Source of the DNA: Rhodothermales bacterium
GTDB lineage: Bacteria; Bacteroidota; Rhodothermia; Rhodothermales; JANQRZ01
DNA length: 64,000 nt
Assembly (NCBI GenBank): GCA_028284265.1
Contig: JANQRZ010000017.1
Span: 62,001 to 126,000 of the forward strand
Direction of reading: 5' to 3'
Position numbers and translations under genes: made by a program. The notes under the pieces are model-generated. The model was given only the letters and a program-made list of their open reading frames with translations. It was not told the origin of the DNA and did no database searches. Positions 2,632-27,353 of this stretch are shown one piece after another; position 1 is the first letter of the stretch, and every line of letters starts with the position of its first letter.

Positions 2632-2634
2632 GAG

Positions 2635-4677: not shown

Positions 4678-5324
4678 TGACGCTCTACGTGCTCGACCTC
4701 CTCGGCGTGGCGGTGTTTGCTGCGAGTGGTGCGCTCGCGGCAGGCCGCAAGAGCCTCGATCTCCTCGGCGTGTTTGTCGTTGCCGTGGTGACGGCGATTG
4801 GCGGCGGGACGATCCGCGATGTGCTCCTCGACCGCAGCCCGATTTTCTGGATCGAGGACACGACCTACCTCCTCGTGATCGGACTCGCGGCGGCAGCGAC
4901 GATCCCGACTGCTCGGGCTGTTCCGTCTGTTGAGCAGGGCAAGAAACCGCGCCGCGCTCTCCTCGTGGCCGACGCCTTCGGTCTCGCGCTCTTCACCGTC
5001 AGCGGGGCGCGCATCGCGCTCGAAGCGGACCTGCCGGGCGTGATGGCCGTTGCGATGGGAGCAATCACGGGGACAGCGGGGGGTGCCATCCGCGATGTGC
5101 TCACGGGTGAGATTCCGCTCATCCTCCGGCGCGACCTCTACGCCACGGCCTCGCTCGCGGGTGGCCTCGTCTACGTGGTTCTCGTCACGCTTCTGGGATC
5201 ATCGCTCGCGGTCGCACTCATCGGGGCTGGGGTGGTCGTCGCGCTGCGCTTCGCGGCTATGCTGTGGGGGCTTGATCTCCCCGTCTTTCGCCTCCAGCGC
5301 GAAGTGGAAACGCGGTCCGACTAA
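4677..5324 (+). CDS. TRIC/UPF0126-type inner-membrane cation channel family protein
   Basis: About 215 residues, seven predicted membrane segments and an internal duplication: each half carries a small-residue helix followed by a Gly-rich turn (GGGTIRDVLLDR in the first, GTAGGAIRDVLTG in the second). This is the UPF0126/YadS layout related to trimeric intracellular cation channels. I choose the ATG at 4677, which overlaps the recN stop; a TTG one codon upstream is the alternative. The physiological ion in bacteria is not established, so only the family call is firm. Confidence 0.88.
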   Translation: MTLYVLDLLGVAVFAASGALAAGRKSLDLLGVFVVAVVTAIGGGTIRDVLLDRSPIFWIEDTTYLLVIGLAAAATIPTARAVPSVEQGKKPRRALLVADAFGLALFTVSGARIALEADLPGVMAVAMGAITGTAGGAIRDVLTGEIPLILRRDLYATASLAGGLVYVVLVTLLGSSLAVALIGAGVVVALRFAAMLWGLDLPVFRLQREVETRSD

Positions 5325-5341
5325 AGCTCAGGCCACGCCGT

Positions 5342-5476
5342 TCAGCACCCGCCGAGGAGCCAGAAAAGCAGGATGAAGATGAGCACCGTCGAGAAGCACC
5401 CGCCGCCGAGTTTCTTTGCGCCGTACCCGGCGATGAGCGTGCGGAGGAGGTTGTTCATCGGGAGAAGAGGCAGCAT
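5342..5476 (-). CDS. Small hydrophobic membrane peptide (38-44 aa)
   Basis: A short reading frame on the minus strand between the TRIC gene and the symporter gene. From the ATG at 5458 it encodes 38 residues beginning MNNLLRTLIAGYGAKKLGGG; an in-frame ATG at 5476 would add six. A basic, Gly-rich N-terminal part is followed by one strongly hydrophobic helix (STVLIFILLFWLLGG) ending in Cys. It sits about 70 bp after the symporter stop on the same strand and could be the last gene of that operon. The peptide-like composition supports coding, but I do not recognise a family. Confidence 0.5.
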   Translation of the reverse strand: MLPLLPMNNLLRTLIAGYGAKKLGGGCFSTVLIFILLFWLLGGC

Positions 5477-5546
5477 GATCGGGAGGGGTTAGAGGAGGGG
5501 GCACCCAAGGTTTGGGCGATCTGTGTTGAAGCGGCTACCGGGGCGG

Positions 5547-7232
5547 TTATTTCGAGTCAGCCAACTCGTCCTCGCTCATCACGCGCGGGTAGCGGATCTG
5601 CTCGACGAGCTGCTGAATCCGCTCCGGTGGTGGCTTCGTCGCGAGGGATACGGCGATCATGAGCGCAAAGTTGAGGAGCATCCCCACAATCCCGATGCCC
5701 TGCGCCTTGATCCCGAAAAAGCTCTCGATGATCGGCTCGACGAAGGTGCCCGGCGCGACGACGTGCGCCCGCATCCCCACGATCATTATGAACGTGAACG
5801 TGAGGCCGACCACCATGCCCCAGATCGCCCCCTGCTTGGTAGCGCGCTTCCAGAAGATGCCGAGCACGATCACCGGGAAGAAGCTCGCCGCCGCCAGCCC
5901 GAACGCGAACGCCACGACCTCGGCCACGAACCCGAGCGGGTAGATGCCGAGGATGCCCGCGAGAATCACGGCCAAGAGGATCATCGCCCGTCCCACACGA
6001 AGCCGCTGTGCATCGCTCGCCGCCGGGTTGATGAGCTTGCCGTAGATGTCGTGCGCGAGGCTCGATGAGATCACAAGCAGCAGCCCCGAGGCCGTCGAGA
6101 GCGCCGCCGCGAGGCCGCCTGCCGCCACGAGCGCGACGATGAACGGCCCGAGGCCCGCGATCTCCGGTGTCGCCAGCACGATGATATCGCGGTTGATCGT
6201 GTTGAGGAACGCGGTCACATCGCTGCCCGCGTTTGCAATCGCTGCAGTGTCAATGAGTCCGGTCTCCGCCCAACTCTGCACCCAAGGCAGTTCGAGAAAA
6301 CCTTCGGGACCGAGTTCAGTGAACTGCTGGAGGAGGTAGGTTTTGGCGAAGGCGGCGAGGGCCGGGGCCGTCGTGTAGAGCAGGGCGATGAAGAGGAGTG
6401 CCCAGAATGCGCTCCATCGCGCGTCGCGGACCGTCTTGACGGTGTAGAACCGGACGATGACGTGCGGCAGCCCCGCCGTCCCTACCATCAGCGTGAACGT
6501 AATGCAGAACACGTTCAGCAGGTCGTTGTTGGCGAACGGGCTGGTGTAGGGATCGAGGCCGAGGTCGGTCTGAAGCTGGTTGAGAAGCGGGATGGCTTCG
6601 CCGATGGCTCCCTGCGGAACCGGGTTGCCGAAGAGGGCGAAGGCGATCGCTATCGCCGGGACCGTGTAGGCGAAGATCAGCACGCAGTACTGCGCGACCT
6701 GCGTGTAGGTGATCCCCTTCATCCCACCGAGGACGGCGAAGAAGGCCACGATCACCATGCCGATCCCAACCCCCAACTCGAACGGCACTTGGAGGAACCG
6801 GCTGAACGCCACGCCGACGCCGCCCATCTGCCCGGCGACGTAGGTGAACGAGACGAAGATAGCCGCCACCGCCGCCACGAGGCGGGCCACCTGCGAGTCG
6901 TACCGCTCGGCGACGAAGTCGGGCACGGTGTACTGCCCGAACTTGCGGAGGAATGGGGCGAGGAGAAGCGCAAGGAGGACGTAGCCGCCCGTCCAGCCCA
7001 TGAGATAGACGCTCCCATCGAAGCCCAGGAACGCGATGAGACCTGCCATCGAAATGAAGCTTGCCGCGCTCATCCAGTCAGCGGCGGTGGCGGCCCCGTT
7101 GGCGATGGCGGGGACGCCGTGCCCGGCGACGTAGAACCCCTCGGTCGTCTGGACGCGGCTGCGGTAGCCGATGTAGAGGTAGGCCGCAAACGTCAGCCCG
7201 ACCGTGATCCACGTCCACTCTTGGGTGCCCAT
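5547..7232 (-). CDS. Sodium:solute symporter large subunit, acetate-permease-like (VC_2705 type)
   Basis: 561 residues with about 13 membrane helices of the SSS family. Seen: ADWMSAASFISMAGLIAFLG near residues 50-70 and the conserved inner core KGITYTQVAQY near 170-180, together with long hydrophobic segments to the C-terminus. The partner is the small DUF4212 protein encoded immediately upstream: its TAA overlaps this ATG by one base (TAATG), which indicates translational coupling. Gene order acs-DUF4212-symporter argues for uptake of acetate or another short carboxylate that acetyl-CoA synthetase then activates. The substrate is inferred from context. Confidence 0.93.
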   Translation of the reverse strand: MGTQEWTWITVGLTFAAYLYIGYRSRVQTTEGFYVAGHGVPAIANGAATAADWMSAASFISMAGLIAFLGFDGSVYLMGWTGGYVLLALLLAPFLRKFGQYTVPDFVAERYDSQVARLVAAVAAIFVSFTYVAGQMGGVGVAFSRFLQVPFELGVGIGMVIVAFFAVLGGMKGITYTQVAQYCVLIFAYTVPAIAIAFALFGNPVPQGAIGEAIPLLNQLQTDLGLDPYTSPFANNDLLNVFCITFTLMVGTAGLPHVIVRFYTVKTVRDARWSAFWALLFIALLYTTAPALAAFAKTYLLQQFTELGPEGFLELPWVQSWAETGLIDTAAIANAGSDVTAFLNTINRDIIVLATPEIAGLGPFIVALVAAGGLAAALSTASGLLLVISSSLAHDIYGKLINPAASDAQRLRVGRAMILLAVILAGILGIYPLGFVAEVVAFAFGLAAASFFPVIVLGIFWKRATKQGAIWGMVVGLTFTFIMIVGMRAHVVAPGTFVEPIIESFFGIKAQGIGIVGMLLNFALMIAVSLATKPPPERIQQLVEQIRYPRVMSEDELADSK

Positions 7233-12768: not shown

Positions 12769-14034
12769 TTATGCTACGTCCGATTCGGCGTACTCCGAGA
12801 GGTCGAGCGTCATCTCCTCGCGGTAGGTCTGGTAGAACGTCACGATCAGCGCTGTCAGCGGAACCGCGATCAGGAGGCCAATAAACCCCATCGTCGCGCC
12901 GAAGACGAGGAGAGAGAGGATCACGAGGACTGGGTGGAGGCCCACTTGGTGGCTCATGATGTTCGGCGAGAGCACGGTCGCTTCCAGCAACTGCTGCCCG
13001 AAGAGGACGACGAGCACGAAGACGGCGTCGATAGGTTCGCCGAAGATGAGGGCGATCACGATGCCCACTACATTCGTCAGGATCGCCCCGACGTTGGGGA
13101 TCATGTTGAGGAACCCGCCGAGGAGTCCGATTAGGAGTGCGAACGGCACGCCGAGGAGGGTGAGCGCAACCGAGATGTTGAATGCCGCGATGCCCGAGAT
13201 GAGGAGTTGGCCGCGCAGGTACGAACCGACGATTTTGCCCGCTTTCGTGAGATACGTCCGCCGCCCCTGCACCGTCGGGAACAGCCCGATGAGGTTGCGC
13301 TCGATCAGGGGATAGTCCTTCAGCGTGTAGAACAGCAAGACCGGGACGAGCACGACCGTGGTGACGAGGTTGAGGATAGATGAGACGCTGCGCGTGAGTG
13401 TCTGGAGCGTATCCGGGATGCGAGCGATGAGGCCGCCGAGTTGGCCGGGCAGGACGGCGGTGAGTTGCGCCTCGACCTCCGAGCGCTCCACCAGCCCTGC
13501 TTCGTCGAGCGAGGTCACGAGTGCGCTGTCGAGAATCCAGCCCTGTACGTTCGCCATGTTTGCCAGCACCCCGTTGGCGAGTGCCTCTAGGCTACCAATG
13601 ATCTTCGGGACGAGGACGATGAGGAAGGCGACGAGGACACCGACCGCGACGAGTGTGAGGCCCAGCGAGGTCGCCCAGCGCGGGGCCTTCCACCGCTGCT
13701 GCGCGGCTTCCACCACCGGGTCGAGGAAGTAGGCCAGCAGGTAAACGATCAGGAACGGGAGTAGTACCCCGCCGAGAAGCGAGACGAGCCAGACGAGGAC
13801 GAGGAGGCCCCCTGCTAGCAGGATGGCTTGCACCACGCGGTGCTCGCGCAACGGCCACAACAACACCGTCCCCACGACCCCAACAAGCAGCGGATTCAGC
13901 AATCCCCGCATCTCGACAGCCAACAAGGCCAGTGCGGCCAGTCCGCCTAGGATCAGCGCGCCCTGAAATATCGTCGTCCGTGTAGGCGCAGACGGCTCGG
14001 GTGCGGGATCGGTCGGCTTCTCGGAGACGGACAC
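12769..14034 (-). CDS. AI-2E family transporter (PerM/TqsA-like permease)
   Basis: 421 residues from a GTG at 14034, 14 bp after the MCE gene stop; longer frames would run into that gene. About eight membrane segments with a large soluble loop in the middle (about residues 150-230). The conserved block IPNVGAILTNVVGI and the preceding LGVPFALLIGLLGGFLNMIP are diagnostic of the family. Members include exporters and Na+/H+ antiporters, so the substrate cannot be read from sequence. It is the last gene of the Mla-like operon, which hints at an envelope role, but the link may be only positional. Confidence 0.9.
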   Translation of the reverse strand: MSVSEKPTDPAPEPSAPTRTTIFQGALILGGLAALALLAVEMRGLLNPLLVGVVGTVLLWPLREHRVVQAILLAGGLLVLVWLVSLLGGVLLPFLIVYLLAYFLDPVVEAAQQRWKAPRWATSLGLTLVAVGVLVAFLIVLVPKIIGSLEALANGVLANMANVQGWILDSALVTSLDEAGLVERSEVEAQLTAVLPGQLGGLIARIPDTLQTLTRSVSSILNLVTTVVLVPVLLFYTLKDYPLIERNLIGLFPTVQGRRTYLTKAGKIVGSYLRGQLLISGIAAFNISVALTLLGVPFALLIGLLGGFLNMIPNVGAILTNVVGIVIALIFGEPIDAVFVLVVLFGQQLLEATVLSPNIMSHQVGLHPVLVILSLLVFGATMGFIGLLIAVPLTALIVTFYQTYREEMTLDLSEYAESDVA

Positions 14035-14048: not shown

Positions 14049-15161
14049 TTATTGCGCTCCCGTATCGTCGGCCTCTTCGTCGGGTACGTCCTGGCTCTGT
14101 GGCACTCCGGCGGGGGCTGGCGTATTGGCTCCGATGGTGCCACTGGCCTGTTCGCGTTGCAGCCGCTGCTCCCATTCGTACAACTCGCGCTCTCGCTGCT
14201 CAAGGGCCTCGTAGGTCTCCCCAAGCGCCTGCTCGCGGATCTCGAATGGAGCCTTCTCGCGATAGCCCCGCCGCTCGTAGTAGCCCTTGAAGAACCAGTT
14301 CTCCTTGAGCGCCTCCATGTTCTCGGCGAGGCGGAACATGGCAAGGGTGCCCCAGTTCGCGGCGTCCTCCATCCGGTCGGTCACAGTCGAGACATCGCCT
14401 GCGGCGGCGTTAAAGTCTTGGCTCGCTTGGAGCATGGCGTTGTAGATGGCGTCGTCGTTGAGGAACCGCGCCATCGTGCCCTCCCCATTGTTGACCTTGG
14501 CGATGATCTCGTTGATGCCCTCGGACGCATCCGCGGCAATCCCGACGAGCGCATCGGCTTCGGCGGTGAGGCCGCGCAGCGCGGCGCGGGTTTCCTGTGC
14601 CGTCAGGACGGATTCTTCGTAGAGCCGGTCGTCGTAGAGAAAGGCCCCGAGCGTTCCCTCGCCACTGCGGATATCGGTCATAATGCCGGTCAGCGAGACG
14701 GTCACCGAGTCGAACCGGGCCACCGACTCGAAGAGGCGGTCCGAGACTTGGGAGAAGTCGAGGGGATCGACGCCTGTGACGGTCCCGCCCTCGGCCACAA
14801 TCGGCTCTAGCTCGCTCCCGCCTTGGAGCACGACGATCATGTTGCCGACGAGACCGTCGGACGTGACGATGGCGCGGGAGTCCTCCCGGATGAGGTGGCG
14901 AGCATCATCCTGAATCGCCATCCCGACCTCGATGGGTGCCCCCGGCGCGCGCGGCAACTCGACCGTCTCGACGCGCCCGACCGAGATGCCCTGATACTGC
15001 ACCGACGCGCCGGGTGTGAGGCCGCCGACGCGGTTGAACTCAGCGCTGATGCGGAAGGTACCCGATAGGAGGAAGGTTTTGTTGGCGAGCACGAAGAGGG
15101 CCAACATGAACGCGACGACGCCGCCGAGGACGATCAGGCCGAGCCGGGCTTGACGAGACAT
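14049..15161 (-). CDS. mlaD: MCE-domain protein, MlaD-like
   Basis: 370 residues: N-terminal membrane anchor (about 7-27), one MCE domain (about 35-115, with NRVGGLTPGASVQYQGISVG), a long helical region (about 120-290), and a C-terminal coiled coil (EALEQRERELYEWEQRLQRE) followed by a Pro/acidic tail. MCE proteins form hexameric rings that conduct lipid between the membranes. The extended helical tail is longer than in E. coli MlaD and resembles needle or tunnel forms (PqiB/Mce type). It lies 72 bp after the ATPase gene, in one operon with the permease. Confidence 0.92.
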   Translation of the reverse strand: MSRQARLGLIVLGGVVAFMLALFVLANKTFLLSGTFRISAEFNRVGGLTPGASVQYQGISVGRVETVELPRAPGAPIEVGMAIQDDARHLIREDSRAIVTSDGLVGNMIVVLQGGSELEPIVAEGGTVTGVDPLDFSQVSDRLFESVARFDSVTVSLTGIMTDIRSGEGTLGAFLYDDRLYEESVLTAQETRAALRGLTAEADALVGIAADASEGINEIIAKVNNGEGTMARFLNDDAIYNAMLQASQDFNAAAGDVSTVTDRMEDAANWGTLAMFRLAENMEALKENWFFKGYYERRGYREKAPFEIREQALGETYEALEQRERELYEWEQRLQREQASGTIGANTPAPAGVPQSQDVPDEEADDTGAQ

Positions 15162-15233
15162 GGGAACTCAGAAGATGGTGGACACAAGAGTGAGTATAAC
15201 GCCACCGCGACGGCGGATCGTGCTGGTAGCGAG

Positions 15234-16043
15234 TTAGGCCCCGTACTGCTCGGTGCCGTAGAAAAAGTCCTTGATGATGGGCTCCTCGGAGGCGCGAAGC
15301 TCGTCGAGCGAGCCACTCTCGATGAAGCGTCCTTGGTAGAGAAAGTGCAGGTCGTCGGCGATGATCGAGGCGGCGAGGAGGTCGTGGGTGATGGCGACGG
15401 ACGAGATGCCGCGCTCGTCGCGGAGGCGGACGATGAGGTCCGAGACGACGCGGATGCTGATCGGGTCGAGGCCGGTCGTCGGCTCGTCGTAGAGGATGAT
15501 CTCGGGTTCGAGAATCACGGCGCGCGCAAGGCCGATGCGCTTCTTCTGGCCGCCCGACAGCTCCGCCGGGAACTGCTTCAGCGTCTTCGAGAGGTTTACG
15601 TCCTCAACGGTCTGCTCGATGCGGTCCTGCTTCTCGCCCTTCGAGAGCTTGGTGTGGCGGTCGAGGTAGAACCGCATGTTCTCTTCTACCGTCATCGAGT
15701 CGAAGAGCGCGCCGCCTTGGAAGAGGTAGCCGATGGAGAGCCGGACGCGGTCGAGCGCGTTGCCTTCGAGCAGGTCCACGCGCTGGCCCTTCACCCAGAC
15801 CTCGCCCCGGTCCGGTTTCAGTAGCCCGACGATGTGGCGGATCAGCACGCTCTTTCCCGACCCCGACCCGCCGAGCACGACCGCGCTCGACCCTTTAGGA
15901 ACCGACAGCGAGATGCCGCGCAGCACATGGTTCTCGCCAAAGCTCTTGTGGATGCCACGAAGCTCGACGATGGTGTCCTCCGGCGGCGGCGTGGAGCCGC
16001 CCGTCACCGGGGCCGTCGGTTGGGTGGTGTCAAGAACATCCAT
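15234..16043 (-). CDS. mlaF: Lipid ABC transporter ATP-binding protein, MlaF-like
   Basis: 269 residues from ATG 16043. Seen: Walker A LGGSGSGKSV (about 57-66), Q-loop in GYLFQGGALFDSMTV (about 105-119), signature LSGGQKKRIGLARA (162-175), Walker B IILYDEPTTGLDP (182 onward) and the switch His in ITHDL. GGALFDSMTV is typical of the MlaF branch. It hydrolyses ATP on the cytoplasmic face of the MlaE permease. Five bases separate it from mlaE. No MlaB-type STAS subunit and no MlaC-type periplasmic carrier is encoded nearby. Confidence 0.95.
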   Translation of the reverse strand: MDVLDTTQPTAPVTGGSTPPPEDTIVELRGIHKSFGENHVLRGISLSVPKGSSAVVLGGSGSGKSVLIRHIVGLLKPDRGEVWVKGQRVDLLEGNALDRVRLSIGYLFQGGALFDSMTVEENMRFYLDRHTKLSKGEKQDRIEQTVEDVNLSKTLKQFPAELSGGQKKRIGLARAVILEPEIILYDEPTTGLDPISIRVVSDLIVRLRDERGISSVAITHDLLAASIIADDLHFLYQGRFIESGSLDELRASEEPIIKDFFYGTEQYGA

Positions 16044-16048
16044 CGCGC

Positions 16049-16987
16049 TTAACCTCCCGATACGTCGCCGAAGATGAAGAGCGAGATTCGCACCACGATC
16101 ACGTCGGCGATGAGGATGAAGAGGGACGAGAGCACGACGGCCTGCATCGCCGCCTGCCCGACCTCGCGCGTGCCCCCGCGCACCGTGTAGCCGAGGTAGC
16201 ACGCTACGATCCCGACGATGAACCCGAAGATGCTGGTCTTGAGCGTATCCACCGTCACGTCCACAAAGCGCATCGACGAGAAGGCGGTGTCGATGAACAC
16301 GCGCCAGTCCATGTTGGTGGCGAGGTTGCTCTCCATGAACCCACCCGACATGGCAATGATGTCCACGAGGATCGTCAGGAGTGGGAACATGATGACGCAC
16401 GCGAGCACCCGCGTCACCACGAGGTAGTGGAAGGGCTTGAGCGCCGCCGCCTCCATCGCGTCGATCTGCTCCGTCACTTTCATCGAGCCGATCTCGGCAG
16501 CGAAGCCCGCCCCGAGCCGACCCGCGAGGACCAGGCTGGTGATGACGGGACCGATCTCCTTGAACACCGAGAGTGCGAGCATACTCGGCAGGAATGCCTC
16601 AGCTCCGAAACGGGCCAGCGTCCCCCGGCTCTGCATCGCCAGCACGATCCCGATAGCGAGGCCGCAGACGCTGACCAGCAGGAAGCTCTTGCTCCCGACC
16701 TCGTCCATCTGGTTCAGCAACTCCTTGAACTCGAAGGGCCGCCGCCAGAACCGCTGGAAGAAGCGCCCGACGAAGCTGAACATCGCCCCGGCCTCATCGA
16801 GGAAGGCGTAGAGCACGCTCTGCGAGTGGCGGAGGCGCTCCATCGTCCGCTCGGCGAAGCTCTTCTCGCGGAGGATTTTCTCGTTCGCCCGTGCCCTGCG
16901 TGCCGCACGGTTCCGCTCGGCAAAAGAGCGCGCCGGGCGACCCTCCGGGTCAGGGCGAGGCTCGTCGGTGAGGCGGGATGGCTCCAT
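16049..16987 (-). CDS. mlaE: Lipid ABC transporter permease, MlaE-like
   Basis: 312 residues from ATG 16987 (a TTG at 17023 would add 12). A basic, Arg-rich N-terminal extension of about 60 residues precedes the MlaE fold: amphipathic helix, then about five membrane segments with GPVITSLVLAGRLGAGFAAEIGSMKVTEQIDAM (about 165-197), the most conserved MlaE stretch. It forms the inner-membrane dimer that moves phospholipid between the bilayer and the MCE ring. First gene of the mlaE-F-D-AI-2E run, 63 bp after tamB on the same strand. Confidence 0.95.
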   Translation of the reverse strand: MEPSRLTDEPRPDPEGRPARSFAERNRAARRARANEKILREKSFAERTMERLRHSQSVLYAFLDEAGAMFSFVGRFFQRFWRRPFEFKELLNQMDEVGSKSFLLVSVCGLAIGIVLAMQSRGTLARFGAEAFLPSMLALSVFKEIGPVITSLVLAGRLGAGFAAEIGSMKVTEQIDAMEAAALKPFHYLVVTRVLACVIMFPLLTILVDIIAMSGGFMESNLATNMDWRVFIDTAFSSMRFVDVTVDTLKTSIFGFIVGIVACYLGYTVRGGTREVGQAAMQAVVLSSLFILIADVIVVRISLFIFGDVSGG

Positions 16988-17050
16988 GGGAAGGGACCGC
17001 GGTGCGGTCGGCGTTTCTGGCAAGATACCCGATCCGCACCACGCCGAGAA

Positions 17051-20000
17051 TCAGTACGAGAACTCGATTAGTGCGCTGCCGCCGTCGCCGCCTTGGTTGC
17101 GGCGTTCCAGTTGCAGGATGAGCCAACTCAGCAGTTGGTATTCGAGGGTCGCCTCGAACCGGGCCTCGTCGCGCTGGTCGCTGTTCGGCGGCTGGGTGAG
17201 GACCGGACTGAGCGAGGCGAAGGTCCGGTTCGTGAGGTAGCGTCCGAAGGTGGCGACGAGCGCACCATCGGGTCGAAGACTGATCTCGACCACGTCGAGG
17301 CCGAGGGAGTTGGCCGCCAGTCCTTCGACGATGCCGGAGAGTTGCCCGACGAGCGCCCCACCGGCCGCTCCGCCGATGCCGCCCCCGCTGCCTCCCTGGA
17401 ACGCTTCGCCCGCAGGACGTCCCGTGGCGATGTACGAGAGGATGTCGGTGTTGTCCATGCTCGGCTCGGCTGAGAACGTCAGCGTGAGACCGTCCTCGGC
17501 CTGCTCGCCCTCGACACCCAAACGCCCGGCGAAGGTGAGCAGGATGGTCGCCTCCTTGCCGGGGCCGGAGCGTGCCGGTACTTCATAGGCGGCCTCGATG
17601 TCGATCTGCGTTTCAGACACCGGCCCGTTGAAGGTGAGCACGCCGCGCCGGATGTCGAACTTCCTGCCGAGCGTCTCGACGCTTCCTCGGTTGACCTCAA
17701 TGGTGCGGAAGAGTTGATTCTCCCCTCCCGGCTCCTTGCGGACCAGCAGCGTCCCGACGAACTCGATGTCGAACTCGGGGTTCGTGTTGCTCCGAAGCCA
17801 GACATTGCGGTCGATCTCGATGTCGAGGTCAAGCTCTAGGTTCTGGACGAAGACGGAGCGTGCGGTGTCGGCCTCGGTGACGCGGACGCCGAAGGTGGCT
17901 TCGATGCGCTGAATCTCGGCCTCGGTCAGTTCAACATCTTCCAGTTCTGCGCCGGTGAGTTCTTCGGTGAGGTAGATGTCGCCAGATTTTAGGATGATGG
18001 CCCCAGTGAGGCGTGGCTTGTCCGTCGTGCCTTCGAAGAGGAGCGGAAAGTCGGGTGTGGTGAGGCGGAGTTCGTCGTAGGTCTGGGTGTCGATCACATT
18101 GAAGCCGTCCATCTCGATGGCGATGGCTAGCTCGCCGAGCGAGAGCTTCGGCAGGGTGATGGTGCCTTCGGCTTCGAGGACGCCGTTTCTCCTGCTACCG
18201 GCGCTCGCGCCTCGAATGCGAACCACGTTGTCGTCGAAGACAAGCGGGATCTGGACGTTCCGAATCGTGCGCCCGAGCGCGAGGAGGCCGAGGAACCCGT
18301 CCGCGAGCCGGGCCTCGCCGCTGAGGACGGGGTCGGACTGCGAGCCAGTGACCGTAATATCCGCCGAGAGGGTGCCGCCGACTTCAGTGAACGTTTCCGG
18401 TGGCAGGAACGGCTCGGCCCACGAGACCGGAAACGAGTCGGCGCGCACGACGAAGTCGACATCACCCTGCGCCGCCTCGCCGATCTGTGCCCGATCTCCC
18501 ACCTCGCCGCTGAGTTTGAAGTCGAGCGGGAGGAAGCCTTCGGCGCGGAGCGTCTGGCCGGAGACGTGCGTCAGCAGCGCATCGAGCGTGAGGCGGAAGT
18601 CGTTGTAGGCAATGTCAGTGGCGAGCGAGCCGACGGTTTCGCCACCAGAAACGAGGCTGTCGATCTGAAGCGAACCGTCGATGGTGGGCGATGCCGCCGG
18701 TCCGGCGAGCACCAGGGTCGTCGAGAGCGTACCGCCGACACCGTCGTAGCCGACAAGGTCCGTGACGGCATCGATCTCCAACTGGTCGATGGTGAGCACT
18801 AGGTTCTGCTCGCCTTCGAGGTCGATGACGCCGTCCACGGCGATTTGCTGGTCGCCGGAATAGAGCAGCAGGTTGCGGAAGCGGGTGCGGGCACCGTAGG
18901 AGATCGTGGCTTCCTGGAGAAGTTGCCACGCTTCATTGTCCACCCGAAAGCTGAACGTTTCGAGGGTGACGTTTCGGTTCTCGGGGTTGAGGTCGGTGCG
19001 GAGCCGAAAGTCGGCGTCGCGCCGTCGGTCGATGCCGAGTTCGCCTTGGGCTGTGAGTTCGTCGCCGTCGTAGGTCACGTCGATGTCGCCGCCCTCGATG
19101 TCGATGCTCGGAACCGACAGGAAGCCGAACTCGACGCGGGCTGTGCCCCGGATGCCGAGGCCGAAAGCAGTCGTGTCGGTGGTAGCGGTCGCCCCGGCGT
19201 ATTCGCCATTGAGGACGAGGTCGAGTGTGGAGGCGCGGATATCGCCAAAGGCAAACTGCTGGGCTTCGACGCGGACGTCGATGAAGAGTGGGTCGCCGGG
19301 GGTGCCGGAGGCTCGGCCTTGAAGGCTGCCTTGCTCTAGCGTCACCGGCTCGGCTAGGAGGGCGTTGAGTGGCGTCGTATCTTTGATATCGGCATCGAAG
19401 GTGAAGTCGGTCCGCGCCGAAGCGTAGTCGGGCAGGGCGATCTGGCCCGCGCCCGTCGCGTCGGCAAAGGACGAGCGGAGCAGGAAGCCGTCTACCCGGA
19501 TCACGCCCTCGGCGAGTGCGAAGTCCGAGCGGAGCGAGTCCACCGAGGCCCCGGCGAGTTGAGAGCCGCCGCCGCGCAGCGATCCGTCGAGCGTCATCGT
19601 GGCCGGGGCGAAGCCTTGGCCCTCGATCTCGAAGCCGAGCGTGATGTTTGTCGGAGCGCGGTTCCGAGAGAGGGAGTCGGGCAATGCCTCGCCGACGAGC
19701 GCCGTCACATCGAGGCTGTCGAGCGTGCCTGCCGCGTCGTAGGTCGGCGTCTCATCGAACGGCCGCCCAGTGAAGGAAGCGCTTGCGGTGCCTTGCTCGA
19801 AATCGAGGTCGAGGCCCGCTTCGACGTAGCCCCGGTCATTGTCGAACTGCACGGTGCCGGATTCGAGGACAGCCCCGTTGATGCGCGACGCAGTCAGCAC
19901 GATCCGTCCCGAGGTCGTGGACAACTGCTGGTCGAATCCGTTGGCGTTGAGTTCTATGCGCCCGTTGAGGTCGGTCTGGAGCGCGGGGTTGCCGAGGACG

Positions 20001-22267
20001 CGGGCGAGGTTGAGGCCTCGGAACGTACTCTCGCCAAGGCGAAGCGTCGGGGTCTCGTCAAAGGGACGTCCGGTTGCCGCGAGACGGAGGTCGCCGTCCG
20101 GCGTCGCCGCGTTCACGCTCAAATCGAGGCCGCCGCCCCGGAGCGCGCCGACGACCGAACCCTCGGTGATCTGCTGGTCGCGGAAGCGCGAATCCCGGAG
20201 GTCGAGCCGCACGTCGGCGGCGAGGGTTTGCGGGTCGATGCCAGTGCCCGAAATGGCGAAGGCTCCCGTGAGATCGCTCGACTGCGTGGTGTCTTGGGCG
20301 AGCGCGCCAAGGTCGAAGTTGCGGACGTTCCCCCGTGCCTCGTAGGTGAGCGTCTCGTCGAAGGGCCGCGCCATGCCCTCGGCGTCCACGCTCCCGACAT
20401 CACCTAGGTCTGCGTCGAGGTCGAACGCGAGGCGGCCCCCGCGCAGGTTGGCCGCTAGGTTCGCGTCGTCAATCGTATAGTCGGCGTAGCGCGAGGCTTG
20501 GAGGTTAGCCGAAAGGTCGAGAGTGAGTCGAGCAGGTTCGGTGCCCGACCCGTAGAGGGCGAAGGTGCCGGTGAGGTCGGTGTGCGTCGTGTCGCCCGTG
20601 ACGGCGGCGAGGTCGAAGCGTTCGAGCCGTCCCTCGTCCACGCGGTAGGCGAGCGGCTCCGTGAAGGGGCGGAGGACACCCTCGGCGGCGATCAGTCCAC
20701 CGTCGACAAACGTCGCCTCGGTGTCGTAGGACACGACGCCATCCCGCAGTCCGGCGTTGAGGCGAAGGGCCGACAGGTCGATCTCCCCGAACTGCGCCTC
20801 GCTGAGCCGAACCGTCGCCGTGGCAATCGCCGTCTCTGGCGCGATACCTCGACCCTCAATAGCGAACGTCCCGGCGAAGCGACCCTGCTGCTCCGGGTTC
20901 TGAAGGAGCGCAGCGAGGTTGACGTTCTGAAGTTCGCCGTTCACATTGTAACGTGGCACCTCGTCGAAGGGCCGCGCCGTGCCTTCGGCGAGGACGCGTG
21001 CGCCCGGCACCGCTGCACCGAGCGTGAACTGAAGCAGCCCATTCGTGAATTGCCCGACGAGGTCGGCTCGTTCGATCTGTTGTTCGCCGAGGTTCGTCGG
21101 GCGCACCTTCACGTCGAGTGTCCCGTCGAGTGCGTCGCGGGCAGGGCCGCGCAGGTCGAGGTCGAGGTCGGCGTTGAAGGCACCGGCGAGGGCGGGGTTG
21201 CCGAGGAGTTGACCGGGATCGAGGTCGCGGACGGTGCCTTCGGCGGCATAGCGGATGGGGCCGCTCGCGCCGCCGCCAGAGAACGCGCCGCTGAGGTCGA
21301 TGGTGCCGCCTTCGGCGAACTCGGCATCGAGGCGGGCGAGGATGTCCTGCGGCGTACCGTTGGCCTGGAGGCGGATCGTCGGGGTACCGTAGAGGGGGAC
21401 CGGCACGAACGCGCGCACGTCGGAGAAGGCGAGCGGACTGGCCTGCAGGTCGGCGTCGAAGGTCAGATTTTCGCCGCCGTAGTCGAGCAAGCCGCTTGCC
21501 CGCACGTCGCTCGCGTCCGAGGTGATGAGGAATGTGTTGAGCATCGCCCGGTCGTCCCCAAACGCCCCAGCGGTGGCGAGTTGAATAGGTCCAGCGTCAC
21601 CTGCCGGAATCGCGGTCGCGTAGAGCGTGTCGAGCGTGCCCCGGAGTCCGTCAGGTCCTTGGTAGAACCCACTGAGTCGAGCGTTCAGCCCATTCACGGT
21701 GACGACCGAGTCGCCGCGCGGCGAATAGAAGTGGGTCTCGATGCGACCTCGTGTGAGGTAGGCCTCGTCGAGCGTGACGATGAAAGTTGATGCGGAGGTG
21801 TCCTCGGGCGCAGGCTTGAGCATCTGCGCCACGTTCCACGTCGAGTCGGCATCGAGCCGGGCGTAGACCTCGACGCCGGAGGCGTAGACCTTGCCGAGCG
21901 AAAGGCGCTTACGGAGGAGAGAAAGGAGCTGATAGTCCGCCCGTGCGGTGTCGATGCGGATGACAGTCTGCCCGTCTTGCTCGATGGTCAGCCCGATCAG
22001 GCGCGTCCCGGTCAGGAAGCCACCATCGAGCCGGTCCACGGTGACAGTGGTGCCCTCGGTGAGGAGGTTTTGGATTTGCGACACCGCGATGCCCTCGACC
22101 TTGCTGCGCCCCCATTCCGTCCGCAGCAGGAGCGCTACCACGAGCACGACCCCGACGAGCATCGCTGCTGCGATGCCGATCCACGTCGCCACACGTCGCC
22201 CCAAGCTTCGCTTGCGCGGAGCCTCGGACTCAGGCATTGGGTCGGGTTGGAGGGTAGAGTCGGTCAT
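17051..22267 (-). CDS. tamB: TamB-type translocation/assembly module protein (1738 aa)
   Basis: Very long AsmA-like protein: an N-terminal membrane anchor (about 28-50), then almost entirely beta-rich sequence predicted to build a hydrophobic groove across the periplasm, and a C-terminal DUF490/TamB domain (about 1450-1738, ending LLSWLILQLERRN...IEFSY). The family bridges inner and outer membranes and supports phospholipid transport and outer-membrane protein assembly. Between about residues 432 and 935 there are five regular units of 100-101 residues, each opening with RPF(D/T)E. The BamA/TamA-type gene is immediately upstream and mlaE immediately downstream on the same strand. Length is large but within the range for Bacteroidota relatives. 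Confidence 0.95.
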   Translation of the reverse strand: MTDSTLQPDPMPESEAPRKRSLGRRVATWIGIAAAMLVGVVLVVALLLRTEWGRSKVEGIAVSQIQNLLTEGTTVTVDRLDGGFLTGTRLIGLTIEQDGQTVIRIDTARADYQLLSLLRKRLSLGKVYASGVEVYARLDADSTWNVAQMLKPAPEDTSASTFIVTLDEAYLTRGRIETHFYSPRGDSVVTVNGLNARLSGFYQGPDGLRGTLDTLYATAIPAGDAGPIQLATAGAFGDDRAMLNTFLITSDASDVRASGLLDYGGENLTFDADLQASPLAFSDVRAFVPVPLYGTPTIRLQANGTPQDILARLDAEFAEGGTIDLSGAFSGGGASGPIRYAAEGTVRDLDPGQLLGNPALAGAFNADLDLDLRGPARDALDGTLDVKVRPTNLGEQQIERADLVGQFTNGLLQFTLGAAVPGARVLAEGTARPFDEVPRYNVNGELQNVNLAALLQNPEQQGRFAGTFAIEGRGIAPETAIATATVRLSEAQFGEIDLSALRLNAGLRDGVVSYDTEATFVDGGLIAAEGVLRPFTEPLAYRVDEGRLERFDLAAVTGDTTHTDLTGTFALYGSGTEPARLTLDLSANLQASRYADYTIDDANLAANLRGGRLAFDLDADLGDVGSVDAEGMARPFDETLTYEARGNVRNFDLGALAQDTTQSSDLTGAFAISGTGIDPQTLAADVRLDLRDSRFRDQQITEGSVVGALRGGGLDLSVNAATPDGDLRLAATGRPFDETPTLRLGESTFRGLNLARVLGNPALQTDLNGRIELNANGFDQQLSTTSGRIVLTASRINGAVLESGTVQFDNDRGYVEAGLDLDFEQGTASASFTGRPFDETPTYDAAGTLDSLDVTALVGEALPDSLSRNRAPTNITLGFEIEGQGFAPATMTLDGSLRGGGSQLAGASVDSLRSDFALAEGVIRVDGFLLRSSFADATGAGQIALPDYASARTDFTFDADIKDTTPLNALLAEPVTLEQGSLQGRASGTPGDPLFIDVRVEAQQFAFGDIRASTLDLVLNGEYAGATATTDTTAFGLGIRGTARVEFGFLSVPSIDIEGGDIDVTYDGDELTAQGELGIDRRRDADFRLRTDLNPENRNVTLETFSFRVDNEAWQLLQEATISYGARTRFRNLLLYSGDQQIAVDGVIDLEGEQNLVLTIDQLEIDAVTDLVGYDGVGGTLSTTLVLAGPAASPTIDGSLQIDSLVSGGETVGSLATDIAYNDFRLTLDALLTHVSGQTLRAEGFLPLDFKLSGEVGDRAQIGEAAQGDVDFVVRADSFPVSWAEPFLPPETFTEVGGTLSADITVTGSQSDPVLSGEARLADGFLGLLALGRTIRNVQIPLVFDDNVVRIRGASAGSRRNGVLEAEGTITLPKLSLGELAIAIEMDGFNVIDTQTYDELRLTTPDFPLLFEGTTDKPRLTGAIILKSGDIYLTEELTGAELEDVELTEAEIQRIEATFGVRVTEADTARSVFVQNLELDLDIEIDRNVWLRSNTNPEFDIEFVGTLLVRKEPGGENQLFRTIEVNRGSVETLGRKFDIRRGVLTFNGPVSETQIDIEAAYEVPARSGPGKEATILLTFAGRLGVEGEQAEDGLTLTFSAEPSMDNTDILSYIATGRPAGEAFQGGSGGGIGGAAGGALVGQLSGIVEGLAANSLGLDVVEISLRPDGALVATFGRYLTNRTFASLSPVLTQPPNSDQRDEARFEATLEYQLLSWLILQLERRNQGGDGGSALIEFSY

Positions 22268-22293
22268 GCGGGGAACAGCTTCTGGTGTTCTAC

Positions 22294-22395
22294 TGTCATC
22301 CTGAGCGGAGCGAAGCGGAGTCGAAGGATCTCTGACGAGGTGCCTTCGAGAGATTCTTCGACTTCGGCCCTTGCGGACCTTCGCTCAGAATGACA
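22294..22395. repeat. 102-bp imperfect inverted repeat, GTCATCCTGAGCG type
   Basis: Arms TGTCATCCTGAGCG...GTCGAAGGATCTCT (left) and AGAGATTCTTCGAC...CGCTCAGAATGACA (right) pair over most of their length, with a loop near GACGAGGTGCCTTCG. It fills the gap between tamB and the barrel gene and has no ORF. Its words match a widespread intergenic repeat style (GTCATTCTGAGCGAAG...GAATCTCT). Confidence 0.85.
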
Positions 22396-22418
22396 AAGGA
22401 GGAAACGAAGGACCATCC

Positions 22419-24677
22419 TCAGAACGTTTGCCCGATGGAAAAGTGGAGGTGGATGCGGTTCGACTCAGGAATGGAGAAGAGGCCGAGGACGCTGATCTCC
22501 TTGGGTTCGACCTCAGAGAGCGGCGTGTCGTTCTGGATCGCGGCCAAGACATCCTGCGGGCTGCGGAGGTCGAAATAGTCCGGGTTGAGTTTGTACCCGA
22601 CCGAGAAGCGAATGGCCCCGACGGGCGTGGCAAACTCTAGGCCGGCCCCGGTCGAGTAGAAAATCCGGTCAGGATTGATGTCGAGACCCGCAAAGCGCGG
22701 GTCCGGCTCCTCGTCGATGAAGAAGCGGTCGTCGTCGGTCCAGACGCGCCCGGCATCGACGAAGACGAAGGTGCCGAAGTTGGAGCCGAAGCCGGGGAAC
22801 GGTAGCCGAATCTCGGCAGTGGCGGTCACTTTCGTCAGGCCGCCGATGCCGACGTACCGACTGGCCGACAGCGTGGTGTCGGCGGGCGCGGTGTCGGTGG
22901 CTTCGGTGATGTTTTGCTGCACGTCGGGGACCTTCGGGCCGAGCAGGCCCGTGCCCCATCCGCGCACATCGCCCGTTCCGCCGCCAAGAAAGACGACGTT
23001 TCGCAGCCGGACGAACTCGATCAGGGCGTCGTCTGGTCCATCGCCCGGAATGCTGGTTCCGAAGGGAAAGAGCTTGCCGCCGTTGATCCGGCCGTATAGC
23101 CCGATGGAGGAGCCGAGCGGGAAGAACCCCGTTGCCGTCGCGCCGAGCCGCCCGTACTCGATGCTCGTGATCGGAAAGGGGAGGGCGACTTCCGCAGAGG
23201 GGCGGAGGATGAAGCCTTTGCGCGGGCTGAGTTCGTCGTCCAACTCGCCGTAGGTGCCGGAGAGGGTGAGTGTGCTGCGGTCCACACGCCCGGCTAGCAC
23301 GTCTTGGAGCGAGTCCTGCCGTGCAAAGTCACGGATTGTGCTGAGGTCGAGGTTCGCGGTGCTTGCCGTCCGGTACTCCTTCACATCGCGTAGCTCGATC
23401 CCGTACTGGAGCGAGGCGGTCTTGAGTTGCTCCAGTTCGTAGAGGAGCGTCGCCGTGCCGCCGTAGGTCGTCGATTCGTTGCGGTCGTCGTCGCGGTACT
23501 CGGCGAAGGGGGAGCCGAGGAGCGCCACGCGGCGGTTGAAGAAGTACGGCTGCCGGAGCGAGACGGACCCTCGGTAGAGCCGCTGCGGCTCCGCCACGAT
23601 GGCTCCGAGGCCGCTGTTCGCTACTGCTGAAGCGGTGAACGTGCGCGCCCCGCCGAAGAAGTTGCGGTGCGTCCACTGCGCCTGCGTTGTCGCCCCGGCT
23701 TCGGAGAGATACCCGATGGACCCCGAGACGATGCGCGGTGCGCCCTCGCGGACGCGGAGGCGGACGACCACGCTGGAGTCGGCGGGCTGGTCCTCGGGCA
23801 CGTCGGCCAGCGCGATCTGGAACAGGTTCAGGCCGAACACCTCGCGCTGCCCCTCAACGAGCTTGCTGTATGAAAACCGGTCGCCTTCGCGGAACGGAAG
23901 CTCGCGCCGGACCACGTTGGGGCTGACCGACTCCGAGCCTTCGACCTCAATCTCGCTGATGCGCGCGCGCGGCCCAGCATCGAGTCGGATGATGACATCG
24001 GCTCGGTTGGCGAGCGAGTCTACTTCGCTTTCGGCGTCTACGCGGGCGAAGGCATAGCCTCGGTCACGGACCCAGCCGAGCGCCGCGTCTTCGAGTTGGA
24101 GGAGCCGGAACTCGTCGAGCCGCTGCCCCTGCTGAAGGGCGATCCGGTCGCGGAACGCATCCCAGTCGTCGCGCAGACTAGCCGGAAACTGCGCCACCGC
24201 CGGGCGGCCCGTCGAGTCTTGAAAGACGAGGTCGTCGAGCAGTAGCGGCGGACCTTCATCGACCGTGAAGAGAATCTTGATGGTGTTCTTCGTCGTGTCG
24301 AGGTCCGTGAGCCAGTCGATCTCCGGCTGGAGGAAGCCGTTGCGGTTGTAGAACCGCCGCAGCCGGACCACGTCCTTCTGCATCTCGACCGGCGAGAAGG
24401 GATGCACACCTACGTCATTGATGGTGGGAATCCACGAGAGGCGCTTGCGGAATCCCGGCCCGAATCCCCACAGCCCCGGCTGCTCCGTCAGCGCGATCTG
24501 TTCTTTCAGTAGCGCTCCCTCAAAAGTCTGCCCGTCAGCGAACTTGAACCGGATAGAGCGGACCTGCGTCTGCTCGTTGATGAGAAACAAGGAGGTTTGG
24601 GCTATCGCTGCGTCAGCCCACGCGAGGGCGACGAGGAGGCACGAAAAAGAGAGGAGGGAAACGAGACGGCGGCGCAT
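22419..24677 (-). CDS. BamA/TamA (Omp85) family outer-membrane barrel protein
   Basis: 752 residues from ATG 24677 (a longer upstream frame is not needed). Signal peptide MRRRLVSLLSFSCLLVALAW...AIAQ, then POTRA-like domains (about 35-380; for example the segment ISEIEVEGSESVSPNVVRRE) and a 16-strand type barrel with the lid-loop motif GDVRGWG and a C-terminal phenylalanine (FSIGQTF). Omp85 proteins fold or translocate outer-membrane components. Adjacent tamB suggests a TamA role, but a general BamA copy elsewhere cannot be excluded, so I give no gene symbol. The start lies 28 bp after the YihY-type gene. Confidence 0.93.
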   Translation of the reverse strand: MRRRLVSLLSFSCLLVALAWADAAIAQTSLFLINEQTQVRSIRFKFADGQTFEGALLKEQIALTEQPGLWGFGPGFRKRLSWIPTINDVGVHPFSPVEMQKDVVRLRRFYNRNGFLQPEIDWLTDLDTTKNTIKILFTVDEGPPLLLDDLVFQDSTGRPAVAQFPASLRDDWDAFRDRIALQQGQRLDEFRLLQLEDAALGWVRDRGYAFARVDAESEVDSLANRADVIIRLDAGPRARISEIEVEGSESVSPNVVRRELPFREGDRFSYSKLVEGQREVFGLNLFQIALADVPEDQPADSSVVVRLRVREGAPRIVSGSIGYLSEAGATTQAQWTHRNFFGGARTFTASAVANSGLGAIVAEPQRLYRGSVSLRQPYFFNRRVALLGSPFAEYRDDDRNESTTYGGTATLLYELEQLKTASLQYGIELRDVKEYRTASTANLDLSTIRDFARQDSLQDVLAGRVDRSTLTLSGTYGELDDELSPRKGFILRPSAEVALPFPITSIEYGRLGATATGFFPLGSSIGLYGRINGGKLFPFGTSIPGDGPDDALIEFVRLRNVVFLGGGTGDVRGWGTGLLGPKVPDVQQNITEATDTAPADTTLSASRYVGIGGLTKVTATAEIRLPFPGFGSNFGTFVFVDAGRVWTDDDRFFIDEEPDPRFAGLDINPDRIFYSTGAGLEFATPVGAIRFSVGYKLNPDYFDLRSPQDVLAAIQNDTPLSEVEPKEISVLGLFSIPESNRIHLHFSIGQTF

Positions 24678-24705
24678 GGGCCGGGCGGACGGCGCGAGGT
24701 GGGAG

Positions 24706-25848
24706 TCAGGAGTTGGACGTGCGGCGGAGCGAGGCCGGTGCGCCGTCCCCCGTTGGCGAGGTGCTCGCGGGCGGCGCGGCCCTTTGATCCGGCGGTGGAG
24801 CCTCCGGTTCCTCGTCCTCAGGCTCTGGCGACGACTTTGTAAAGAGGCCACGGAGGTACTGGCCGAGTCGGCTCCGGTCCGGGTCGTTCTTGCGCTCGTG
24901 CAGCCCGGTCATAATGGCCCCGATAATAAGCACGAGGCCGGAAAAATAGACCCAGAACACGAAAGCCAGCAGCACGCCGAAGATGTTGCCCAGCCCACCG
25001 AGTGCCTCGTCGGTGGAGTCGATGGTGGCTCGGACGGTGGCATCCGCGGCGGCGGCGGGGACGCTCGTCTCACCGTAGCGGCTGAAGGTGCTCGTGTACG
25101 TCGCGTAGATCGTAAACCCGTTCTTGGCAAGCTCGAATAGGACTGCTGAGACGGTAGCCCCGAAGAAAGCGCTCCGCGATGGCGGCGACGGCAGCGGGAT
25201 GAAGTAGTACAGCTGCATGAACATGAACACCGAGAGCGCATACGGGATCAGCAACGACACGAGGCGCAGCACCAGCCCCCACCCGCGCTTCAGCAGTTGC
25301 GGATCAAATCCCCAGCCGACGAGAATCTCTGTGCTCTCGGCACTGATGTAGTTGATGCTGAAGGTGAGGGCGAACGACAGGACGAAGAGCAGGCCGACCT
25401 GCGCTGTCATCCGCAGATCAAAAGCGTAGCCACTGAGGAGGGGACGATACGTCGGCTTATCCCGAACGGCGGTGGCGAGGATATACCGCAACGCTGTGAA
25501 CAGCGTGATCACCGTCAGCAAGAGGAACACCGAGCCGAAGATGGTGATGGTCGACGAGGCGTCCTGAATCTGGAAGAGCAGCTCGACGAGCGTCTCGCTC
25601 TGGCCCGGCGGCAGAAAGGTTCTCAGGTAGCCTGCCACGGCGTCAAACGGGTTCTCCTGCTTCATCACGAGGCCGAAGATGCCCGTTGCCAGAAGAATTA
25701 GCGGCAGGATCGTGACGAGCACCTTGAAGGCGATGGCCTGCGCCCAGATAAATACAGGCACCTCGTTGATGCGCCTCCACAGGCCCGCGAGGTAAAACTT
25801 CGCGGCGTCCAGAATCGAGCGCACGGGCCGAGGCAACGCGACGGACAT
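24706..25848 (-). CDS. YihY/BrkB (UPF0761) family inner-membrane protein
   Basis: 380 residues with six membrane segments: about 40-60 (AFKVLVTILPLILLATGIFG), 100-125, 140-175, 185-210, 215-245 and 250-310, then a Pro/Glu-rich cytoplasmic tail of about 70 residues. The central segment FIPLPSPPSRSAFFGATVSAVLFEL is typical of the family. Family members were once annotated as RNase BN, which is incorrect; one E. coli relative, YhjD, affects lipid A precursor export, so a lipid-related role is plausible. It leads directly into the barrel-tamB-mla block. Confidence 0.9.
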   Translation of the reverse strand: MSVALPRPVRSILDAAKFYLAGLWRRINEVPVFIWAQAIAFKVLVTILPLILLATGIFGLVMKQENPFDAVAGYLRTFLPPGQSETLVELLFQIQDASSTITIFGSVFLLLTVITLFTALRYILATAVRDKPTYRPLLSGYAFDLRMTAQVGLLFVLSFALTFSINYISAESTEILVGWGFDPQLLKRGWGLVLRLVSLLIPYALSVFMFMQLYYFIPLPSPPSRSAFFGATVSAVLFELAKNGFTIYATYTSTFSRYGETSVPAAAADATVRATIDSTDEALGGLGNIFGVLLAFVFWVYFSGLVLIIGAIMTGLHERKNDPDRSRLGQYLRGLFTKSSPEPEDEEPEAPPPDQRAAPPASTSPTGDGAPASLRRTSNS

Positions 25849-25933: not shown

Positions 25934-27190
25934 TTAGGCTGTGGCCTTGCGTTCTTCCAGAACTGGGGGGGCCTCACCGTGCACCGTCGCGCCCGAGACG
26001 CGGCACAGACCAATCGTCCGCTGGCTCGGCAGGTCGAACATCACGTCGAGCATCGTCTGCTCCATCACGCTGCGGAGGCCGCGCGCGCCGGTGCCGAGCG
26101 CCTGTGCCCGCTCGACGAACGCGTCGAGCGCCTCATCGTCGAAGATGAGGTCCACGCCGTCCATCGCGAGGAGCTTCTGGTACTGCCGGACGAGCGCATT
26201 TTTCGGTTCAACGAGGATACGCTTCATCGCCTCCGGCGTGAGCGGGTCGAGCGCAGCGAGGACAGGCAGGCGACCGACGAGTTCGGGGATGAGGCCGAAC
26301 TTGAGGAGGTCGTCCGGCTCGGCGTATTGGAAGATGGCCGGGTCGTTCTTGTCGAAGCGACCCGCCGATCCCGCCGTGAAGCCAATCTGCGAGGCGCTCA
26401 TCCGGCGAGCGATTACGTCCTGCAACCCGGCGAACGCGCCGCCGACGATGAACAGCACGTTCGAGGTGTCGAACGGCACGAGGCTCTGCTCCGGGTGCTT
26501 CCGTCCGCCCTTCGGCGGGACGCCCGCGACGGTCCCTTCGAGCATCTTGAGGAGTGCCTGCTGCACGCCCTCGCCGGACACGTCGCGCGTGATGCTTGCG
26601 TTGTCCGACTTGCGAGCGATCTTGTCGATCTCGTCGATGTAGATAATTCCGCGCTGGGCACGCTCTAGGTCGTAGTCAGCCGCTTGGAGGAGATGGCTAA
26701 GGATGCTCTCCACGTCCTCGCCAACGTACCCGGCCTCGGTCAGCGCCGTCGCGTCGGAGATCGAGAACGGCACATCCAAGATGCGGGCCAGCGTCCGGGC
26801 GAGGAGTGTTTTGCCGGTGCCCGTCGGTCCGACGAGCAGGATGTTGGACTTCTCCAACTCCACATCGTCGTGGAGGTACTCCTGCGCTTCGAGCCGCTTG
26901 TAGTGGTTGTAGACCGCGACGGCGAGCGCTCGCTTGGCCCGGTTCTGCCCGATGACGTATTCGTCGAGCGCCTCTTTGATCTCGCCCGGCGTGAGGCGAT
27001 GCGAGCGCGTACTGACCGGGCGGCTCGGCGGCGGGTTCAGCACGAGGTCCCCGCGCACGATTCCCGAGGCGTCATGGATGCACCGGTCGCAGATGTAGAC
27101 GCCGGGACCGGCGACCATCGAGGCTACTTCCTGCGCGGTGAGATTGCAGAACGAACAGCGGATGATATCGTCGTCGCCGCCTGCGTGCAT
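25934..27190 (-). CDS. clpX: ATP-dependent Clp protease ATP-binding subunit ClpX
   Basis: 418 residues from ATG 27190. Zinc-binding domain with Cys12, Cys15, Cys34 and Cys37 ([11 protein letters not shown]...YICDRCI), AAA+ Walker [12 protein letters not shown], the pore loop GYVGEDVES, Walker [11 protein letters not shown], sensor and arginine-finger regions, and the IGF tripeptide (SASQIGF) that docks on ClpP. It unfolds tagged proteins for ClpP. No clpP lies nearby, unlike many genomes. A possible promoter lies about 45-75 bp upstream on the minus strand (TTG, 21 bp, TATCTAA). Confidence 0.98.
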
Positions 27191-27353
27191 ACGTTCGGAG
27201 CGTCGTGCGGAGTGAGGTGTTAGATACTGACATCGGCAGCCGAAATGCAACCGTTAAATCAGAAGATAGTGGATAGCCTAAGTTGGCAGGGGCGCGAAGA
27301 GCAACGCATTCTGTCCGCCCTCTCACGGTCCACGGCTCACCGTCTTACCGAAC

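Follow-up and report, generated by a model that had tools for sequence, protein, structure and literature searches.

We describe a block of genes on the minus strand of a 64,000-nucleotide stretch (the window; positions 62,001 to 126,000 of contig JANQRZ010000017.1) from a Rhodothermales bacterium. The window lies on contig C10 of an assembly that comprises 24 contigs and 3.69 Mb, with a completeness of 97.86%. Open reading frames (ORFs) and Pfam matches give, in the order of transcription, clpX, yihY, a gene for an Omp85-family outer membrane protein, tamB, mlaE, mlaF, mlaD and a gene of the PerM/AI-2E family. On balance we think it probable that the block is one envelope-lipid operon that encodes two separate conduits, and that TamB is no stand-in for the periplasmic carrier MlaC. 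The block as such is likely to be a lipid module: the order of its genes is kept across families, their spacing is tight, and their products belong to envelope and lipid-bridge families. The first-pass annotation of the window had proposed one lipid-trafficking module on these lines, and the proposal is supported as an inference.

The six genes from yihY to mlaD lie at 14049-25848, all in the order and on the strand that the first-pass annotation gave, with boundaries that are exact and families confirmed by Pfam. yihY (24706..25848) encodes a YihY/BrkB-family inner membrane protein of 380 residues (PF03631, 116 bits, cut-off 33.7), which scores below the cut-off of the narrower model TIGR00765 (63.3 vs 73.15) and has five hydrophobic segments in a simple hydropathy scan. 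The next gene (22419..24677) encodes an Omp85 barrel with POTRA domains (PF01103, 137 bits; PF07244, 68 bits), and starts either at an ATG (24677; 752 residues) or at a GTG (24851; 810 residues). TamB (17051..22267; 1738 residues; PF04357, 153 bits, cut-off 22.4) has both features expected of the TamB of the translocation and assembly module (TAM), an N-terminal membrane anchor at about 30-48 by hydropathy and a C-terminal PF04357 domain at 1359-1736. The three core genes of an MlaEFD transporter follow side by side. mlaE (16049..17023; PF02405, 230 bits; TIGR00056, 219.4 bits, cut-off 212.2) starts at TTG 17023 or ATG 16987; it is called the block type below, as the genome has a second copy. 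mlaF (15234..16043) starts at ATG 16043 with GGAGG upstream and encodes an ATPase of 269 residues (PF00005, 112 bits), whose best NCBIfam match is MlaF (PRK11831) at 173.7 bits, under the cut-off of 441. mlaD (14049..15161) encodes 370 residues with one MCE domain (PF02470, 59 bits) and a long helical C-terminal tail; against the E. coli-type equivalog model TIGR04430 it scores 64.8 bits, under the cut-off of 135. The genes are separated by about 28 nt (yihY-omp85, from the ATG start), 151 nt (omp85-tamB), 27 or 63 nt (tamB-mlaE), 5 nt (mlaE-mlaF) and 72 nt (mlaF-mlaD), and the block is presumably transcribed as a single operon.

The arrangement recurs in relatives. We located MlaE, TamB and MlaD in 37 genomes, comprising the genome itself (G000), 12 others of its order and 24 others of its class; class genomes whose MlaE match fell outside the rows listed were placed by the position of MlaD instead. 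TamB and MlaE are linked in 8 of the 13 order genomes, from four of seven families. The two genes are adjacent in seven (G000, G003, G008, G050, G058, G085 and G135); in the eighth (G030) a distance of 3.3 kb separates them, room taken up by a SpoIIE-domain gene plus a small ORF with no Pfam match. Recurrence across four families argues that the junction is not due to chance, and an order confined to this strain, which the first-pass annotation named as grounds for giving up the idea, is not what is seen. The tamB and mlaE ORFs overlap by 11 nt in G003, G008 and G050, and in G003 yihY and omp85 overlap by 4 nt, with the neighbouring ORFs of the block overlapping or almost touching. Among the named loci, L087, L088, L089 and L091 have TamB with MlaEFD and L090 has MlaEFD without TamB; L090 and L091 are probably the same records as contigs C5 of G096 and C50 of G135. 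In the 24 other class genomes TamB was never found within 50 kb of MlaE or MlaD on one contig, where contig ends could hide linkage; fragmented assemblies may mask it, as in G123, with TamB at a contig end.

The upstream part of the block is conserved in its own way. Every one of the 13 order genomes has exactly one YihY match, which lies within 10 kb of TamB in nine; of the 11 genomes examined for both, 10 have YihY adjoining the Omp85 gene (G034 and G131 were outside the Omp85 search). The pair is split in G013, where YihY stays near ClpX (L085). Incomplete blocks also occur: yihY-omp85-tamB stand together with MlaEFD elsewhere in G096 and G147, and in G030 the yihY-omp85 pair is far from the segment running from tamB to mlaEFD. 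Such partial blocks fit sub-modules. In three class members from two other families (L063, L065 and L070) an Omp85 gene abuts tamB with no YihY or MlaEFD alongside. At the upstream flank, clpX (25934..27250, minus strand; NCBIfam ClpX PRK05342, 598 bits, cut-off 359) is the neighbour of yihY in the majority of relatives examined (L037, L038, L040, L042, L043, L044 and L085); it is probably not part of the lipid module. Downstream, 14 nt after mlaD, is a gene that adds to the block as described earlier, for a PerM/AI-2E-family membrane protein (12769..14034, minus strand, with a start at 14034 or 14175; PF01594, 166 bits, cut-off 34.3). A PerM gene (cluster 13) ends the block in six genomes including this one, and a tgt gene takes its place after mlaD in G085 and G135.

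How might such a block work? In the reading we prefer, TamB would be anchored in the inner membrane and would reach a TamA-like Omp85 barrel in the outer membrane, so that phospholipid could pass outward. YihY may act as an inner membrane helper of this arm. MlaEFD would form an ATP-driven MCE transporter that moves phospholipid inward, or is at least driven independently, and encoding the two arms together would set the ratio of outward to inward flow. We infer the directions of flow, the coupling of the arms and the role of YihY; the assignment of the arms is transferred from a study of TamAB and from the genetics of Veillonella parvula. In that organism mlaEFD, tolC and tamB form one cluster, and inactivation of tamB partly rescues an mlaD mutant, which the authors read as opposite lipid flows (PMC10665443). 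Cryo-EM of TamAB reports that TamB binds phosphatidylethanolamine and phosphatidylglycerol and that the two proteins, TamA and TamB, build a hybrid barrel (PMC12800296). The preferred reading also draws on Acidobacteriota ORFs that join TamB to Omp85, one of which lies 1.1 kb upstream of mlaE. In the literature covered, which lies mostly outside subscription journals, we found no TamB-Mla cluster beyond the Veillonella paper; in a cyanobacterial paper that names TamB with MlaD, TamB figures solely as a network partner from a different locus (PMC7464499). The block ties an MCE transporter to an AsmA-like bridge in a lineage far removed from the Negativicutes, which makes the balance of their phospholipid flows testable by simple deletions, and it points to YihY as a candidate inner membrane partner of TamB.

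Several observations weigh against an operon with two opposing arms. The TamB-MlaE link was not seen in five of the 13 order genomes (G013, G034 and G131, of one family, G096 and G147), and in G096 the block-type MlaEFD is located away from TamB. In G050, mlaE follows tamB about 1.9 kb from a contig end while mlaF-mlaD-perM lie inside another contig; a split or interruption of the block thus separates mlaE from mlaF in this assembly. In L089, YihY is missing from its place between ClpX and Omp85. We found nothing in the same literature linking YihY to TamB or to phospholipid transport, and the block Omp85 falls below the TamA cut-off and scores better with BamA (219 vs about 44 bits). A pattern scan for promoters and terminators that might mark an operon boundary was uninformative (no promoter-like sites vs 1.2 in shuffled sequence; nine terminator-like sites vs 7.5). 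In another explanation, the block is a vertically inherited envelope cluster whose parts work independently. The absence of the link in those five genomes favours it, as do the housekeeping genes clpX and tgt that flank the block in the same relatives. It accounts less well for the overlapping ORFs and for junctions retained in several families despite changing outer flanks, and we regard it as rather unlikely.

In the first-pass annotation, TamB was suggested to replace a missing periplasmic carrier, on the ground that no MlaB, MlaC or MlaA is encoded near the block. The ground itself is sound: no further ORF fits between the block genes. For MlaB this rests on the lack of room for an extra same-strand ORF, and no search with an MlaB model was made. 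MlaC is present in the genome on another contig as a single copy (C23:83859-84269; PF05494, 85.6 bits vs 26), whereas MlaA has no PF04333 match in the genome at its stated completeness. MlaC was found in 33 of the 37 order and class genomes and in all eight order genomes with the TamB-MlaE link. The four order genomes that lack it (G013, G034, G131 and G096) all lack the link as well, and in G147 MlaC occurs without the link. Three of the four without MlaC belong to one family, so the genomes cannot be counted as independent. The association thus runs opposite to what replacement of MlaC by TamB predicts, and with MlaC in the genome itself we reject the replacement. The same annotation had held that MlaC or MlaA homologues found with MlaD elsewhere in the genome would count against its idea; MlaC does exist there, but it adjoins neither MlaD, and MlaA gave no match. 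Outside Proteobacteria, a long MlaD lacking MlaA, MlaB and MlaC is reported to be the norm (PMC10665443). Nothing need therefore be missing, and the lack of MlaA and MlaB beside the block MlaD is ordinary. Replacement also fits poorly with Veillonella, where the actions of tamB and mlaD appear to be opposed (PMC10665443).

MlaC has a neighbour of its own. In this genome it sits beside a gene of the outer membrane efflux protein family (OEP; TolC-type), and a TolC/OEP-family gene is directly upstream of MlaC in all 10 class genomes inspected (L036:6265-8312; L075-L083), a call made by Pfam in the genome itself and by 31-55% protein similarity in the other nine. A TolC-type outer membrane partner for MlaC is possible.

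The MlaD tail bears on whether the two arms could be one. An AlphaFold2 monomer model of MlaD (21 sequences) has a membrane helix at 3-31, a confident MCE domain at about 35-131 and helices at 136-339, in line with the long helical tail claimed from the first reading of the sequence. The predicted local distance difference test score (pLDDT) of the tail is about 40-70, except for 78-89 at residues 311-340. The monomer model has no C-terminal outer membrane barrel of the transenvelope type found in Veillonella, a barrel formed by a hexamer being outside this test. A barrel-less MlaD may need an outer membrane partner, and the tail could dock on TamB or on the POTRA domains of Omp85, with ATP hydrolysis by MlaEFD driving or drawing lipid along the TamB groove in one continuous conduit. 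The position of tamB directly upstream of mlaE would suit such a conduit, as would the absence of MlaA from the genome and a TamB-Omp85 fusion that lies 1.1 kb upstream of mlaE in an Acidobacteria metagenome-assembled genome (MAG). Against it, this genome and every linked genome of the order encode MlaC, the block-type MlaEFD of G096 is unlinked, and the Veillonella genetics show antagonism (PMC10665443). MlaD is, moreover, reported to be generally barrel-less in the Fibrobacteres-Chlorobi-Bacteroidetes (FCB) group (PMC10665443). A further and weaker point is that our hidden Markov model (HMM) labelled no ORF as TamB in 75 MlaE loci from outside the Rhodothermales; many flanks were incomplete, each ORF received its best label only, the TamB HMM was derived from members of this class, and the scan missed the Acidobacteria fusion, which Pfam later found. 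We consider a single conduit unlikely.

The Omp85 protein is TamA-like by position only. The genome has 10 matches to the Omp85 family, this one included, nine of them above the cut-off, and with NCBIfam models the protein reaches 219 bits for BamA (cut-off 297), 59.7 for TamL (cut-off 400) and 43.7 for TamA (cut-off 625). Pfam finds two POTRA stretches, which may or may not amount to the three POTRA domains of TAM. Read from the ATG, the N-terminus resembles an ordinary signal peptide by eye; its single cysteine, residue 13, lies within the hydrophobic stretch in a context that is not lipobox-like. An AlphaFold2 model made from three sequences had a mean pLDDT of 37 and was not used. Since the protein is most BamA-like, and TamAB reportedly folds certain barrel proteins as well (PMC12800296), yihY-omp85-tamB might be an outer membrane protein assembly module of the classical TAM kind, leaving MlaEFD as the only lipid mover. 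The binding of phospholipid by TamB and its implication in outward lipid flow (PMC12800296, PMC10665443) argue otherwise, and this explanation seems to us very improbable.

The genome has a second MlaEFD on contig C15, beside a gene with RadA-like domains, and a second TamB on contig C16, beside a 3-dehydroquinate synthase gene. In an MlaE tree of 76 rows, the block type forms a clade of 10 rows and the other type one of 17, each with support 100/99. That the block-type MlaEFD is a recent copy of the other set was considered and rejected, as the two MlaE sets fall in separate clades. Among the order members fetched, the other type has the RadA-like gene next to it. The block type shares its side of the tree with many Bacteroidota and Ignavibacteria MlaE and with two from Acidobacteria; the nearest MlaE found is 70% identical and comes from a Rubrivirga sp. 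MAG, Rhodothermales MAGs coming next, and the nearest row in the tree is labelled Rubricoccaceae, Rhodothermota. Deep joins are unsure, with one row (L049) on a very long branch. That row belongs to a very divergent MlaE/MlaF pair of G147, the MlaE being 30% identical to that of the block with a branch length of 5.7. A conserved stretch at about 278-300 of the block-type MlaD recurs in the MlaD of a Bacteroidetes MAG (L093) and of Melioribacter (L108), and is absent from the other type. Separately, seven loci from Ignavibacteria or related MAGs (L093, L094, L103, L108, L114, L140 and L155) have a weak Omp85 match close to MlaE. The only one checked by Pfam (L093:6040-7806) is a real Omp85, about 2 kb upstream of mlaEFD with UbiA and RNase HII genes between.

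The block also leads to proteins in which TamB and Omp85 are joined. The Acidobacteria MAG mentioned above (genome G148, locus L142) has a single ORF of 2177 residues at 270-6803 that combines AsmA/DUF748, TamB, POTRA and Omp85 domains; some 1.1 kb separate its end from the mlaE that follows. A PF04357 search of 99 Acidobacteriota genomes found TamB in 88. The TamB frame exceeds 2,000 residues in 24 genomes, including G148, and the other 23 places and 17 more were fetched. TamB and Omp85 share one ORF in at least 24 of the 99 genomes (L142; L207-L229 except L216), a minimum, since frames below 2,000 residues were examined only in part. Both domains were called by our own HMMs in 23 genomes; in the 24th (G164) Omp85 was called by HMM and TamB by Pfam. 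The frames have 2019-2441 residues, except one of 1558 in G187, judged from a 4-kb locus. A 2073-residue frame in G216 gave neither TamB nor Omp85 in our HMM scan and was not counted. Pfam confirms both domains in four further fusion ORFs, and as one of these (G211, L215) lies on a contig of 5.98 Mb, an assembly error is unlikely. Among the fetched fusion loci, only L142 has MlaEFD nearby. Our literature search found no paper on such a fusion, and the words 'fusion' and 'fused' are absent from the available text of a 2015 paper on TAM evolution. The fusion could be a single-chain bridge that would span both membranes. In the same phylum, a YihY-like gene by our own HMM is convergent with and adjacent to tamB in two genomes, too few to count (L174:189-1091 and L204:2747-3799; G149 and G213).

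The Acidobacteriota fusions also enter the most integrated reading of the block, in which YihY, Omp85, TamB and MlaEFD make up one physical, regulated lipid-exchange machine. There, YihY would load or scramble lipid at the foot of TamB, TamB would carry it out, and MlaEFD, docked through the MlaD tail on the Omp85/TamB bridge, would return the excess with ATP; the fusions would be the covalent form of the bridge. We hold such a machine to be distinctly unlikely.

The preferred reading, of two conduits in one operon, can be set against four known systems. The Mla system of E. coli is alike in MlaD, MlaE and MlaF; here, by contrast, MlaD is longer, no MlaA was found, and MlaC is on another contig beside a TolC-type gene. 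TamL-TamB of the Bacteroidota, from the wider FCB group, resembles the block in having an extra Omp85 partner for TamB (PMC12045153). There tamL and tamB are reported outside a common operon, though tamL2 and tamB2 share one (PMC12045153), and an older paper speaks of TamL-TamB operons (PMC4494059); the block Omp85, in contrast, is linked to tamB and scores low with the TamL model. The TAM of Proteobacteria is alike in an Omp85 gene directly upstream of tamB; the block differs in an Omp85 that is under the TamA cut-off with a higher BamA score, and in yihY before and mlaEFD after the pair. The mlaEFD-tolC-tamB cluster of Veillonella parvula (PMC10665443) differs in that TamB comes first here, that Omp85 and YihY stand in place of TolC, that MlaD is without a predicted barrel, and that MlaC, another MlaEFD and another TamB are encoded elsewhere in the genome. 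It is alike in the side-by-side arrangement of MlaEFD and TamB, in a long MlaD and in a cluster without MlaA and MlaC. The block is thus an unusual combination of known parts, not a new kind of machine.

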